Shown here in pieces: positions 1 to 8,169 of a stretch of DNA of 35,122 nt. Numbering within the stretch: position 1 is the stretch's first letter; each line of letters opens with the position of its first letter. Source of the stretch: Stutzerimonas stutzeri (GTDB lineage Bacteria; Pseudomonadota; Gammaproteobacteria; Pseudomonadales; Pseudomonadaceae); contig NZ_JAMOIC010000030.1 of the NCBI RefSeq assembly GCF_024448895.1, positions 1 to 35,122 of the forward strand, written 5' to 3'. Made by a program: the position numbers and the translations under genes. The notes beneath the pieces are model-generated. The model did not search any database. It saw nothing but the letters and a program-made list of their open reading frames with translations, and was not told the DNA's origin.

Positions 1-822
1 GTAGGCGGTAACTGCGTGTCGATGGGACGGCCACAGGAGTTTGCCCAGGCGGCGAATTTCTACAGTGAAGTTGACCGGGCTTGCGATTTGAACGTGCAGT
101 TCGGGATTGGCCTGCTGGTCGAGCAGATGGTTCATGGCCGTGACAAGCGGATGGTCGGACGAAGTGCTATAGCATATGACGCGTCGTGGCTGGCCTTGCC
201 GGGCTTTAAGCTTCGCTCCGGCTATCTCGATGCGGATGACTTCGCTCCGCAGCGTTTCATCGAAGGTACGGGAGATGTAAACGCCGTTTTTAAGCTCGGC
301 CGGTCTGCACCCGCTCAAAGCCGCTGTGATTATCGCTGCGCCATATTTACCCGTCTTGCTACGTTCATAGAGCGTCTCGCGCCAGTTATCGGGAAGACCA
401 TGCAGTGCCCGGCGTTTGCTTTTGCGCTTTTCACGAGTGCCTTCCAGGCCTGTCTGTTGAACCGCAGCGAAGGCTCTCAGGGCATTCAGGTGTAACTCCA
501 GCTCTCCCTGGAGTGCTCTTTGTTGCTCGTTCTGGCTCTGGCGCAGGGAGAGCATCAGGTCGTAATGCCGGGCATGTAAGAAGTAACGTAGTGCTGCCAT
601 GCGTTTTTGAAAGGTGCGTGGGCTGGAGGTACTGGTCACCACCGTCTGTAAGTCATGTGCATCATTTCGTACCCGCTGCATGAGTACTCGCCCCAGCTGT
701 AGGTAATCGGCACGGGTTTGTTCCGATGGGTCGGAAAAGATGCCGCCACGTGGTTGTATGGCCGCAACCGATTCTATGCATTGCTGCGCGAGTGATAGCA
801 GTCGCTGCTGTAGCTTGTTCAC
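1..822 (-). CDS. Tyrosine-recombinase-like protein, 3' end beyond window
   Basis: The reading frame is open from a GTG at 822 to the window edge (274 codons, no stop), so the gene is incomplete. The GTG overlaps the stop of the upstream replication gene as GTGA, which suggests translational coupling. Residues 1-140 are helical and charged with no recognised domain. From about residue 143 it resembles the catalytic half of a tyrosine recombinase: a stretch reading AALSGCRPAEL (about 167-177) matches the first active-site arginine region (R173), followed by a beta-strand segment IAGAKLKARQGQPRR (about 200-214) where the active-site lysine is expected. The later H-x-x-R and tyrosine would fall just outside the window. 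Calling it a recombinase is inference from these motifs. It may be an accessory recombinase or resolution protein of the mobile element rather than its main integrase. Confidence 0.6.
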   Translation of the reverse strand, partial: MNKLQQRLLSLAQQCIESVAAIQPRGGIFSDPSEQTRADYLQLGRVLMQRVRNDAHDLQTVVTSTSSPRTFQKRMAALRYFLHARHYDLMLSLRQSQNEQQRALQGELELHLNALRAFAAVQQTGLEGTREKRKSKRRALHGLPDNWRETLYERSKTGKYGAAIITAALSGCRPAELKNGVYISRTFDETLRSEVIRIEIAGAKLKARQGQPRRVICYSTSSDHPLVTAMNHLLDQQANPELHVQIASPVNFTVEIRRLGKLLWPSHRHAVTAY

Positions 823-1838
823 GACATGAGCTCTGTTGCCAGCTGATCAATACAGTCTGCCGAGACCTCTTGAACGCTACCGGCCTGAATGGCGAACAGC
901 AACCCGTCTTGTTCCAGTCGGCCGATTCGACGTGTCAGTTGGCCCCGCTCAATGCGGAACAGCTCATAGAGTCCGTCTGCTTCGATTCTGGCATAGCTAT
1001 TTGCCTGTTCTAGGGGCCAAGCGAAGCACCGCCCACGCAGCGCCGCCAGAGTTTGCTGAGGCACCTTCTTGCTCGCATTTTCGCGAGGTGTTTGGTTGAG
1101 CAGGTGCTGCAATAGCGCAGGAGCGTTCCGTGGCGGGCTTGTACACGAGCGGAACTGTTGCGCCAAAGAGTCAACGGCTTTTTGCAGCTCGGCGGCGGTG
1201 CGACCTGATTTCTGGGCTTTTTTAAGGACGCCAGTAATTCCGTCTTGCTGGGTCGCAGGTATGGAAAAGATATCCACAGGCAATGCTGGCGACTGTAGCG
1301 TTGGCGTTAGAGTTATATTTTTAGCGTTAGCGTTACCGAGGGAAAAGTTGGATGAGGTATCGATACCATATCCATATGGTATCTGGGAGGGATCGTCTAG
1401 GCTCTGCTGACCAAACTCAAGGTCTACGATGGGGCGGTACTCTTGCGGAAGTCGTGGGCGGAAATCCTCCAGAAAGTGCTGCTGCCATGGCTGCGGGATG
1501 CGCCGAATGTCTGCCAGTGTCCTATTACGTAGCTTGGGGCCCATGCTTTGGCCAGCGTGGTGGTGCTCCCACCATATGCGCACCCAGACGAACATATGCT
1601 CGGTGTCGAACCAAGTCAGATCGTTCGCGCGGAGCCGGTCGATAACCTGCAACCATTGCTCTGGCGACCAACCCACTTCAGCACTGGCTATTTTGGGTAC
1701 AAGGGCATAAGCCCCGACAATGTTGGAGTCGGGGCAAGTAAGCAGATGTAGAAGGGCGATTTTGTCTTCTGTGGTGCATATTTGCAGGCGTGGTGAGCGC
1801 CAGAAGCTCTGGTCGTTGATGGTTCGCTGGCGGCTCAT
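819..1838 (-). CDS. Replication-initiator-like protein of the mobile element
   Basis: 339 aa from the ATG at 1838, preceded by AAGGG and starting one base after the stop of the AlpA-like gene. A longer frame starts at 1886 but would overlap that gene. The N-terminal ~100 residues look like the winged-helix domain of phage or plasmid replisome-organiser proteins (FWRSPRLQ at 12-19, then a predicted helical core and a VWVRIWWEH segment). A low-complexity linker follows (about residues 155-190), then a helical C-terminal half. The DNA encoding the linker carries origin-like repeats (1270-1383), as in lambda-type O genes where the origin lies inside the initiator gene. The family assignment is by resemblance only. 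A transcriptional regulator with a winged helix is the main alternative. Confidence 0.5.
   Translation of the reverse strand: MSRQRTINDQSFWRSPRLQICTTEDKIALLHLLTCPDSNIVGAYALVPKIASAEVGWSPEQWLQVIDRLRANDLTWFDTEHMFVWVRIWWEHHHAGQSMGPKLRNRTLADIRRIPQPWQQHFLEDFRPRLPQEYRPIVDLEFGQQSLDDPSQIPYGYGIDTSSNFSLGNANAKNITLTPTLQSPALPVDIFSIPATQQDGITGVLKKAQKSGRTAAELQKAVDSLAQQFRSCTSPPRNAPALLQHLLNQTPRENASKKVPQQTLAALRGRCFAWPLEQANSYARIEADGLYELFRIERGQLTRRIGRLEQDGLLFAIQAGSVQEVSADCIDQLATELMS
1270..1383. other. Candidate replication origin inside the initiator gene
   Basis: Several origin-like elements cluster in 114 bp. At 1270-1278 lies ATATCCACA, one mismatch from a DnaA box (TTATCCACA). TAGCGTTGGCGTTA (1296-1309) and TAGCGTTAGCGTTA (1322-1335) are 14-bp direct repeats with one mismatch, 26 bp apart, separated by an AT-rich spacer (GAGTTATATTTT). 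At 1356-1367 GGTATCGATACC is a perfect palindrome, and 1362-1383 is a 10-bp perfect inverted repeat (GATACCATAT / ATATGGTATC) around CC. All sit in the linker-coding part of the replication gene. The repeats are directly visible; their role as iterons and origin is inferred. Confidence 0.45.
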
Positions 1839-1839
1839 C

Positions 1840-2040
1840 TTATTGCCCTTGTGCAGCAGGGCGCTGGGAAGCGGCTTGCGCCTCAAGCCATGAGTCGAGC
1901 TCGGTCTCTAGAAACATCACCATCCGCCCGCCCCCAAGGTTGATGGGTTTGGGAAAGCCTGGCTGCCTGGACAGACGCCAAAGAGTGGTGCGGCTGACCG
2001 AAAGTTTATTGCACACTTCTTGAATACGTATAGCGCGCAT
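1840..2040 (-). CDS. AlpA-family helix-turn-helix regulator
   Basis: 66 aa, typical for the AlpA / excisionase-like family. Residues 5-27 (IQEVCNKLSVSRTTLWRLSR) form the MerR/Xis-like helix-turn-helix, followed by PGFPKPINLGGGRMVMFLETELDSWL, the usual AlpA ending in which a small wing precedes a final helix. GAGGAG lies 7 bases before the ATG. AlpA proteins activate excision or early transcription in P4-like elements and are described as master switches of Gram-negative phage-inducible islands. Here the gene sits directly upstream of, and one base from, the replication-initiator-like gene, which fits a switch for excision and replication. Family assignment is strong; the target promoter is not known. 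Confidence 0.85.
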   Translation of the reverse strand: MRAIRIQEVCNKLSVSRTTLWRLSRQPGFPKPINLGGGRMVMFLETELDSWLEAQAASQRPAAQGQ

Positions 2041-2150: not shown

Positions 2151-2960
2151 TCAGTCTACAGATGGGGTAAAGTGCGGTAGCTCGCCAATATCGCTTTGAT
2201 GCCGCAGCTCCTTCAGGGTGATCGTCGCAGGTTGCCGGTCCCAGTCGTAAGTGTCGCTATGCTGGTATTCTTCGTAAGAATGGGGTGCACGAAGTTTTCT
2301 TAGCATCGTTTTCGCGTGCCGTAGGCTGTTCGTGGGATGTTCTCCCGCCTCCGTGAATACTGCTGCCAAGCAGGCGACCGAATCAGATTCTCTCGGGCTA
2401 CCGCCATTCCTTCGCTCCGAACCGCTGTTTGCCGCGGTCAAGGGCCATCCTTCTATGTGGCATAGCACCACGAATTTCTTAGCTAGCTGGAACTCTGCTG
2501 AGTTGCCGGGTCTGCCTGCTTTGTTACGCTCAGCTAGCGAAGTTGCCGCTGCATGAAGCCAGATCAAGGTGTGGCGACTAAGCAAATCATTGGGAGCATG
2601 TGGGCCGCTATGGTATGCGTCTTCGCTTAGGGCCATTAGGTCATGGCCTAGCAGCGATGCGTCATGCCGAATTGGCTGCGCGTTCACTGTTTCGAGCTCA
2701 CGGCTTGATAGGGCGCTGAGCGCAGCTTGCATTTGAGCCGCTGCCTTTGCGACAGCCTCGTAGCGTCGACGGCTTTCCTTGTCTTGAGTAGCAGGAAATT
2801 GGCGGGCATGGGCATGAGCGATGGTCTCAAGCTTCCCGTAGAACGCCTCGGGGTCCTTGAATACGGCCTTACCTTGGCTTGTTCGACGCTCGAAGATCTC
2901 TTGGACCACGGCCCTCAATGGAGCAAAGCATGGTTGGCTGGGCCCATATCCTTCACTCAT
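2151..2960 (-). CDS. Unrecognised protein coupled to the integrase
   Basis: 269 aa from the ATG at 2960, which overlaps the integrase stop codon as ATGA. An in-frame ATG at 2975 would give a 19-base overlap and is less likely. I do not recognise a family. The protein looks soluble, mostly helical in its first 170 residues (rich in Ala, Glu, Arg), with no signal peptide, membrane segment or nucleotide-binding motif. A His-containing stretch around 112-135 (DAYHSGPHAPNDLLSRHTLIW) and a Ser/Gly/Arg-rich segment near 185-195 stand out. The coupling suggests co-expression with the integrase, so a role in integration, excision or element maintenance is possible, but nothing in the sequence proves it. 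Confidence 0.6.
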   Translation of the reverse strand: MSEGYGPSQPCFAPLRAVVQEIFERRTSQGKAVFKDPEAFYGKLETIAHAHARQFPATQDKESRRRYEAVAKAAAQMQAALSALSSRELETVNAQPIRHDASLLGHDLMALSEDAYHSGPHAPNDLLSRHTLIWLHAAATSLAERNKAGRPGNSAEFQLAKKFVVLCHIEGWPLTAANSGSERRNGGSPRESDSVACLAAVFTEAGEHPTNSLRHAKTMLRKLRAPHSYEEYQHSDTYDWDRQPATITLKELRHQSDIGELPHFTPSVD

Positions 2961-4129
2961 TCCTGCAGTTTCCATTTTTCAAGGTGGTCGGCCCAATCTT
3001 GCATCATTACCCGGCGCTCCTCGAAATAGGTGGCATGGTTGTAAGTCCGGCGCACGCTGTTTCGCTCAGCGTGAGCAAGCTGCGCTTCGATGGCATCAGG
3101 ACGATAACCCAGTTCGTTAAGCCTGGTGCTGCCGGTCGAACGCGTGGCATGAGGGCTATAAGTGCCACTCCATCCTAGGACCTTGAGTGCCTGACGTAGC
3201 GATGCTGCCGACATAGGCCCGTTGCGGTCATCGCGACCAGGAAATAGGTGCTTGCGCTTGCCTGTGATGACGTGAAGCGCGTTGAGCATCTCGACGGCTT
3301 GTCGAGGAAGGGGAACTAGGTGCTCACTCCTTGCTTTCATTCTCACGGCAGGGATACGCCAGGTTTTCGCTGTCAGGTCGAACTCGGCCCACTCCGCTTC
3401 AGCCACTTCCGTAGGGCGGGCCAACGTCCACCACATCAGCTGTACGCAATAATTCACCTGATAGCTGCAGCGGTGATTGTCAAAGTCGCTTAGCAGCTTC
3501 CCTACTTGTTGTTTGCTGAGTGCGGGTTTGTGCTGTGTCTTGTTGGCAGGGAGCGCCTTTCGCACTGGCCAGACCGGGTCGCTTTCGGCACGTAGGGTGG
3601 CAACAGCGAACTCAAAGACAGCTGACATTGTGCGCCTCGCCTCCGCCGCCACACTTGGAGCACCACGTTTGGCGGTTTTTTGTAAAATTTCGAGCACATG
3701 GATCGGCATCACGTCACGTACCGGCATATAGCCAATACTAGGGAAGACGACACGCCGAAGCATGCCAAGCCGTCGGTGCTTGGTAACTTCCTCCCAGTCT
3801 TTCGTCTGCAGCCACTCCTTGGCTACGACCTCGAAAGTGTTCTGAGCTTCGTTGGCCTGTCTGATTCGCTCAAGCTGCCGCTGCTGAGCAGGATTGATGC
3901 CTTGCTTGACCAGTTTGCGTGCAGCTGCGCAGCGTTCGCGTGCTTCTGAGAGTGAAGTGGAAGGGTACTCGCCGAGTGCGAACATGCTCGACTTGCCGTT
4001 GAGTGCGAAGCGGAAGCGCCAGGCTTTTACATTGTTTGGTTTGACCTCCAAGTACAGCCCTCGTTGGTCGTTCAGACGGTACAGCTTCTCTTTGGGCTTC
4101 GCGTTACGGCAGTGCGCGTCGGTGAGCAT
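2957..4129 (-). CDS. P4-type tyrosine integrase
   Basis: 390 aa, the usual length for island and P4-like integrases. Residues 1-85 are the N-terminal DUF4102-type arm-binding domain (AKPKEKLYRLNDQRGLYLEV, then ALGEYPSTSLSEAR). A SAM-like core-binding domain lies at about 97-185 and the catalytic domain at about 205-380. Active-site residues visible are R238 (TLARPTEV), H327 and R330 (SPHATRS), H353 (LAHAERN) and the tyrosine in the YNHATY segment (363-368). These enzymes insert elements at tRNA or other short sites. The gene is the last of the element: its start faces ychF across 213 bp that holds GTACTC repeats. All key residues are present, so it should be active. Confidence 0.93.
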   Translation of the reverse strand: MLTDAHCRNAKPKEKLYRLNDQRGLYLEVKPNNVKAWRFRFALNGKSSMFALGEYPSTSLSEARERCAAARKLVKQGINPAQQRQLERIRQANEAQNTFEVVAKEWLQTKDWEEVTKHRRLGMLRRVVFPSIGYMPVRDVMPIHVLEILQKTAKRGAPSVAAEARRTMSAVFEFAVATLRAESDPVWPVRKALPANKTQHKPALSKQQVGKLLSDFDNHRCSYQVNYCVQLMWWTLARPTEVAEAEWAEFDLTAKTWRIPAVRMKARSEHLVPLPRQAVEMLNALHVITGKRKHLFPGRDDRNGPMSAASLRQALKVLGWSGTYSPHATRSTGSTRLNELGYRPDAIEAQLAHAERNSVRRTYNHATYFEERRVMMQDWADHLEKWKLQE

Positions 4130-7969: not shown

Positions 7970-8044
7970 TGGCAGGGGCGGCTGGATTCGAACCAACGCA
8001 TGCCAGGATCAAAACCTGGTGCCTTACCGCTTGGCGACGCCCCT
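7970..8044 (-). tRNA. tRNA-Gln(TTG), second copy
   Basis: 75 nt with encoded CCA. The minus strand begins AGGGGCGTCGCCAAGCGG, pairs its acceptor with CGCCCCT, and has the anticodon stem CCAGG / CCTGG around loop TTTTGAT, giving anticodon TTG. The T loop is GGTTCGAATCC. The sequence is identical to the other copy at 8095-8169. It decodes CAA/CAG codons. Confidence 0.95.
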
Positions 8045-8094: not shown

Positions 8095-8169
8095 TGGCAG
8101 GGGCGGCTGGATTCGAACCAACGCATGCCAGGATCAAAACCTGGTGCCTTACCGCTTGGCGACGCCCCT
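8095..8169 (-). tRNA. tRNA-Gln(TTG), first copy
   Basis: 75 nt with encoded CCA and anticodon TTG, identical over its full length to 7970-8044. The two genes are separated by 50 bp. The 5' end lies only 12 bp beyond the ispE stop codon, so the pair is likely transcribed with ispE and cut out by RNase P. Confidence 0.95.

Follow-up and report, generated by a model that had tools for sequence, protein, structure and literature searches.

In phage lambda, the iterons of the origin lie within the initiator gene O (PMC3985674). The RepA_N initiator of plasmid pSK41 has a winged-helix N-terminal domain and a C-terminal domain that varies with the host, and its origin boxes occupy the central, linker-coding part of rep (PMC5703833). 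Among integrated elements, the island SGI1 replicates after excision and has an HTH_17 gene preceding rep; its iterons are 17 bp long, its oriV is located downstream of rep, and a helper plasmid is needed (PMC7433901). The RepA of PLE, a satellite in Vibrio cholerae, is a DnaD-like initiator of the RepA_N family encoded by an integrated Gram-negative element with iterons and a non-coding origin (PMC7145576).

Origins within initiator genes are already known. What appears to be new here is an 11-bp iteron, GATACCCTATC, that is unusually widespread; a literature search whose reach excluded most subscription journals and figures found no published description of it. The repeats described below lie inside an initiator gene, in its linker-coding part, and are conserved as DNA, the layout of an in-gene origin. 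On the strength of the sequence comparisons, we consider it highly probable that the cluster is the oriV of an integrated mobile island, carried inside the island's own initiator gene.

The island and its genes

The DNA analysed, referred to as the window, is the entire contig C30 from its first base onward (35122 bases). The terminal part of a mobile island, with five genes, takes up the first 4.1 kb:

1..822, minus strand: tyrosine-recombinase-like gene, truncated at the contig edge (PF12834, E 0.016, below cut-off)
819..1838, minus strand: rep, the initiator gene, 339 aa (matches to phrog_1701 and phrog_6251; AlphaFold models)
1840..2040, minus strand: AlpA-type HTH regulator or excisionase-like gene, directly upstream of rep (PF05930, E 2.5e-11; PF12728, E 1.1e-8)
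2151..2975, minus strand: island gene, 274 aa, function not assigned; a copy in L030 is 40% identical
2957..4129, minus strand: P4-type tyrosine integrase (PF13356, PF22022, PF00589)

The integrase lies beside a gene that we take, from its protein, to be ychF. The closest relative, L030 of Propionivibrio limicola, has the same five genes in identical order; its integrase is 85% identical and likewise adjoins a ychF-like gene. The C-terminal part of the L030 relative of the recombinase-like gene matches the extreme end of a second contig, C35. Positions 8000-26540 of C35 (L072) are likely the continuation of the island and contain genes resembling those of type I restriction-modification, an OLD-like nuclease and a sigma-54 type regulator, as judged by eye. 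The recombinase-like protein (1-822, minus strand) has weak plasmid relatives, four of them on plasmids of 2.7-3.8 kb. Tandem tRNA-Gln (TTG) genes occur on the minus strand of the window at 7970-8044 and 8095-8169. Between the integrase-ychF intergenic stretch and the fetched part of C35, the longest shared match was 13 bp; this is close to the ~11.5 bp expected by chance, and no attachment-site core is proposed.

The repeat cluster in rep

The initial annotation had described repeats, palindromes and a DnaA-like box at 1270..1383, and every one of these elements was found where it had been placed. The features are as follows:

1351..1383, minus strand: three 11-bp phased iterons (1373-1383, 1362-1372 and 1351-1361), the middle unit inverted with respect to the consensus
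1294..1335, minus strand: G-poor TAACNN tract with a 6-bp period, a putative unwinding element that holds both 14-bp repeats
1270..1278, plus strand: DnaA-box-like ATATCCACA, one mismatch to TTATCCACA, auxiliary at most

The 14-bp direct repeats, TAGCGTTGGCGTTA at 1296-1309 and TAGCGTTAGCGTTA at 1322-1335, are identical at 13/14 positions and 26 bp apart. The palindromes are GGTATCGATACC (1356-1367) and GATACCATAT-CC-ATATGGTATC (1362-1383). Both sets are real; the essential unit, on our reading, is the 11-bp phased iteron together with the 6-bp periodic tract rather than a DnaA box with two 14-bp repeats. The iteron units are spaced one helical turn apart and the array is located ~450 bp into rep.

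To score the array, we used a consensus that was picked after viewing the homologues and whose defining perfect copies are in other genes, none of them in the window. The window array scored 28/33, a value reached by 9 of 20000 codon shuffles that preserve the Rep protein (0/2000 in a smaller run) and, within rep, by 1 of 5000 scrambled consensus 11-mers. It is the best match in the 35,122-base window, and no other position scored 26/33 or more. The 10-bp palindrome arm was reached in 8/1000 protein-preserving shuffles of rep and the TAACNN tract in 29/2000 synonymous shuffles. Within rep, both the 60 bp poorest in G and the 80 bp of lowest stability overlap the tract.

The DnaA box, which the initial annotation had called near-perfect, is present with its one mismatch, and an identical box occurs in L030. 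It is the weakest part of the cluster: among homologous genes, a one-mismatch box is enriched rather than constant (6/18 against 1.2 expected), and a DnaA-box-driven origin was set back because of this inconstancy.

The initiator protein

Rep comprises a predicted winged-helix N-terminal domain (residues 1-145), a disordered linker (residues 146-185) and a C-terminal part. In the AlphaFold model, the N-terminal domain has a mean pLDDT of 88.5 and residues 146-185 have pLDDT values below 50; both the array and the tract fall within this linker. The winged-helix assignment of the N-terminal domain is based on the succession of its helices and strands, together with weak Foldseek matches. Searches with the whole model and with the N-terminal domain yielded no match at E ≤0.001 and no initiator structure; the best winged-helix match had an E-value of 0.075, and the 50 matches listed were mostly winged-helix regulators, with some methyltransferases. 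A phmmer and profile search of the PDB returned a bacteriocin immunity protein, annexins and an immediate-early protein, which were rejected as weak and implausible.

According to PHROG searches, the window protein resembles DnaD-like helicase loaders (phrog_1701, E 1.1e-11) and replisome organizers (phrog_6251, E 3.8e-6), and matches to these families were found in 24/24 scanned members. The RepA_N domain, PF06970, matched 0/24 members at E-values up to 0.1. Similarly, PF07261, the DnaB_2/DnaD C-terminal domain, was absent from the window protein at E-values up to 1.

Distribution of the family

Using the window protein as query (E 1e-5), members were found in 0/55 other genomes of its own genus. 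The gene occurred in 5/397 genomes elsewhere in the family and in 12/398 genomes of the genus g15, three of which are counted also among the five. With the same single query, no phage matched and no match in genome_contigs or viral_contigs was confirmed. Among plasmids there was one distant match, from Bacillus velezensis, with 30% identity across 26% of the query length; two other members had none. That the sole plasmid match is distant, and that no plasmid shows the family at work, counts against the cluster being an origin. Wider searches and a profile search opened the family beyond this query, giving 29 loci in genome_contigs, several from the same genomes, and 5 viral contigs. An order-level search of 293 genomes added five further, distant matches (L065-L069).

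From 49 genes, five short or truncated ones (L011, L013, L035, L058 and L061) were dropped and the remaining 44 were grouped into 18 representatives, which removed several cases of one genomic place being present in two collections. The broken or truncated members (L013, L061, L011/L035 and L058) had an early stop codon, ran into a contig end or lost homology. The 18 non-redundant homologues span Pseudomonas, Propionivibrio, Massilia, Achromobacter, Ralstonia, Burkholderia and Corticimicrobacter. L065-L069 were kept outside the comparisons of representatives, their arrays being scored in a separate run.

Judging from neighbouring genes, some of the relatives have the appearance of integrative conjugative or mobilizable elements: a relaxase and VirB5 beside L049, an integrase and TrbL/VirB6 beside L041, and TrbL/VirB6 beside L052. 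The MobP1 label fell under its NCBIfam cut-off and the Pfam relaxase match over its own. In most of twelve loci a small gene directly precedes rep; that of L049, the one scanned, is HTH-like below cut-off. Some relatives are catalogued as IMG/VR viral contigs (L059-L063); going by the neighbours of similar loci, some of these contigs may belong to conjugative or mobilizable elements and not to phages.

The rarity of the gene in its own genus, together with the fact that no circular form is known and that transfer genes were not recognized on the parts of the island read, would suit an origin that is real by descent and now unused, the island being a fixed remnant. By contrast, the rep, alpA and integrase frames are intact, the array has been kept, and the nearest relative, from another genus, shares both gene order and neighbouring gene. 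We regard present disuse as unlikely; it is compatible with the cluster being an origin and was assessed apart from it.

Conservation of the array among homologues

The array exceeded the synonymous-shuffle null in 17 of the 18 representatives (≤17/2000 shuffles, with 0/2000 in 13 of them) and was weak in L044 (80/2000). Eleven of the 18 contain the exact palindrome TATCGATA. The TAACNN tract was reached by ≤32/2000 shuffles in 13/18 representatives; it was not significant in the other five (L009, 49/2000; L003, 80/2000; none in L002, L007 and L033). Counted without a null, the lowest-G 60 bp overlapped the tract in 18/18 genes and the least stable 80 bp overlapped the array or tract in 15/18. 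By eye, the spacing between array and tract is near-constant. In three genes, L049, L051 and L053, a second group of 11-bp units lies upstream of the main array, offset by 66 bp (six units) in L049.

High-scoring arrays were also confined to rep in the loci scanned. Across 34 loci comprising 609,441 bases, 28 positions scored at least 27/33 and all were within rep. By locus, 16 reached 27, fifteen scored 24-26 and three scored 21 or less (the truncated L035 and L058, and L044). Further, where residues were identical, the codons were also identical in 335/415 cases (0.81) in the origin segment, versus 1088/2184 (0.50) before and 487/1008 (0.48) after it, the counts being from 20 non-independent pairs. 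The DNA of the array and the tract is conserved beyond the requirement of the protein.

Comparison of homologous genes at the DNA level had been suggested in the initial annotation as a check on the repeats. In the near family this check came out in favour of the repeats: diverged homologues retain them, and the linker that they encode is not conserved. By contrast, the five distant genes from other families of the order, L065-L069, matched the N-domain HMM yet had no array (17-19/33; 338-932/1000 shuffles). A different origin signal is to be expected in these genes.

These data bear on whether the cluster is a protein-level feature, namely a low-complexity linker peptide whose DNA repeats arise from codon bias. 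The 6-bp period of the tract is a multiple of 3, the first TAAC of the tract is in the same codon phase in 18/18 genes, and asparagine 169 is invariant in A3, so the tract could partly be a peptide repeat. An argument from frame differences between homologous positions was dropped on account of this constant codon phase. The mean column information was also left unused, being inflated by the choice of anchor. For the array, however, an 11-bp unit does not divide into whole codons, so that adjacent units are read in different frames. The test relied on is the synonymous shuffle, in which the array is lost although the protein stays the same. We consider such a protein-level explanation very improbable.

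DNA-only searches and phage initiators

We also searched IMG/VR with a 15-bp DNA probe, which returned 82 stretches in 80 loci, 65 of them distinct by flank. Counting only the bases beside the 15-mer, and leaving the raw number of 15-mer matches unused, a phased array was present in 41/65 distinct places, as compared with 0.1 expected from shuffled flanks. The N-domain HMM (E 1e-3, 77-ORF set) matched at 26 of the 41 array-bearing places, two of which, L106 and L136, are the already known contigs L060 and L059; it matched at 5 of the 24 array-less places. In a PHROG scan of six of the 15 array-bearing places lacking an HMM match, L085, L086 and L114 matched phrog_1701 and L112 an O-like family; L120 and L129 matched no replication family. 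A phage-like contig end, L073 (5280-5406, minus strand), contains a perfect 11-bp tandem followed by TAAC-rich repeats. The longest frame across it is open to the contig end and stops after 21 codons, the tract being mostly outside the frame, and the record has no N-domain match.

Eight records, six from phages and two from plasmids, matched a query of three consensus units, with weak E-values (0.002 to 4). They include array carriers from two phages of Gram-positive hosts, namely a DnaD-domain gene in Exiguobacterium phage vB_EalM-137 and the replisome organizer in Geobacillus virus E2 (two records), as well as a DnaD-domain gene on a 44.6-kb circular Brevibacillus plasmid. In these three genes (L156-L158), the array follows the N-terminal domain, at codons 127-142, and the C-terminal domain is PF07261. 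A GAA/AAA-rich tract follows the array immediately in two of the three and ~100 bp later in the Exiguobacterium phage. The N-terminal domains of this group and of the window family are homologous according to hhalign (probability 97.7, 22% identity).

The converse test, from protein to array, was seeded by these three array-found genes, so that the set is centred on array carriers; it used the best 80 of 356 IMG/VR relatives, thinned to 36 distinct genes. Eighteen of the 36 scored at least 27; for 32, no more than 15/500 synonymous shuffles reached the score. The array was absent from four distinct phage genes (L165, L182, L186 and L236). Before thinning, 48/80 scored below 24, since 42 of the loci are the L186 cluster. 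The prophage genes of this cluster have a homologous N-terminal domain and no array, and the linker of L186 is of the KEK type. The converse and DNA-probe sets are not independent, having at least six contigs in common.

Comparison with known systems

The initial annotation had likened the locus to lambda-type O genes, and the annotated lambda iterons do lie inside O, at codons 117-145. As in the window, iterons in the initiator gene are followed by an A-rich stretch. Lambda O has no N-domain HMM match (E 1.1, score below 0, 11-protein set) and no such array (19/33; 203/1000 shuffles). The gene after the window rep resembles a tyrosine recombinase, below the Pfam cut-off, and no P-like gene was recognized beside rep. 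Together with lambda O, the DnaD-like loaders TP901-1 rep and A118 gp49 lack the array (17-19/33) and an N-domain match (E 0.078 to 1.1 for the three). All three have repeats of their own in the linker region, those of lambda O being known from annotation.

The RepA_N origin, as in pSK41, is a closer structural analogue, in that it combines a winged-helix N-terminal domain, an origin in the linker-coding part of rep and a variable C-terminal domain. The window family differs in being without PF06970 (24 members), in having 11-bp iterons and in residing in integrated Gram-negative elements. The phage loaders of PHROG 1701/6251 share the homologous N-terminal domain and, in the set obtained with array-bearing seeds, the array (32/36 distinct genes). 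They differ in that the three named examples have a PF07261 C-terminal domain, absent from the window protein, and in that the tract is often GAA/AAA-rich. SGI1 is similar in being an integrated island with an integrase, an HTH_17 gene before rep and an iteron oriV, that of the present island being a candidate; it is dissimilar in the position of its oriV, its iteron length and its need for a helper, as set out above. PLE, too, is an integrated element of a Gram-negative host and has iterons and a DnaD-like initiator; it is set apart by its non-coding origin and RepA_N family.

Binding and initiation are not told apart by conservation, as any protein-bound site would give equal conservation of DNA. 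The array might, in principle, be an initiator-binding site that serves control, through autorepression, incompatibility or titration, instead of being the start of replication. Against this, the array is ~450 bp inside the gene, away from its start; the coupled, easily melted periodic tract suits an origin better; and the in-gene repeats of pSK41 and lambda are origins (PMC5703833, PMC3985674). We judge a role in control alone to be improbable.

If the cluster is an origin, we propose that the N-terminal winged-helix domain would bind the 11-bp sites along one face of the helix and that the adjoining tract would melt and perhaps be kept single-stranded. The divergent C-terminal part would recruit the host helicase or primase, and the excised circle would then be copied. 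Winged-helix plasmid initiators are reported to bind iterons and, at the same time, a single strand of a repeated unwinding element, which provides a fitting model for the tract (PMC4081077).

A broader reading is offered tentatively, with our own judgement leaning marginally towards doubt. It holds that a single 11-bp phased iteron code, GATACCCTATC, would have persisted as the origin in a large branch of the winged-helix initiators, one that takes in ICE-like elements and islands of beta- and gammaproteobacteria as well as phages of Gram-positive bacteria. The C-terminal part would have been exchanged as hosts changed, and the recognition domain would have diverged to ~22% identity, the IDTVSIPY-like and KEKEK-like linkers being the mere translation of the origin. 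Because five distant N-domain genes are without the array, this broader reading was lowered from slightly favoured to its present standing, and our confidence that the window cluster is an origin was reduced by a very small step.

Significance

To our knowledge, few integrated elements have a known origin, and for most islands it is not established whether they copy themselves once excised. The in-gene DNA signature allows candidate origins to be read from the sequences of many phages and integrative elements at once. It also makes autonomous replication directly testable and indicates which elements should share an initiator or compete for one. The odd, repetitive linkers of DnaD-like phage proteins may be explained as features of the DNA and not of the protein. 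If the shared code is true, otherwise unrelated elements could recognize one another's origins.
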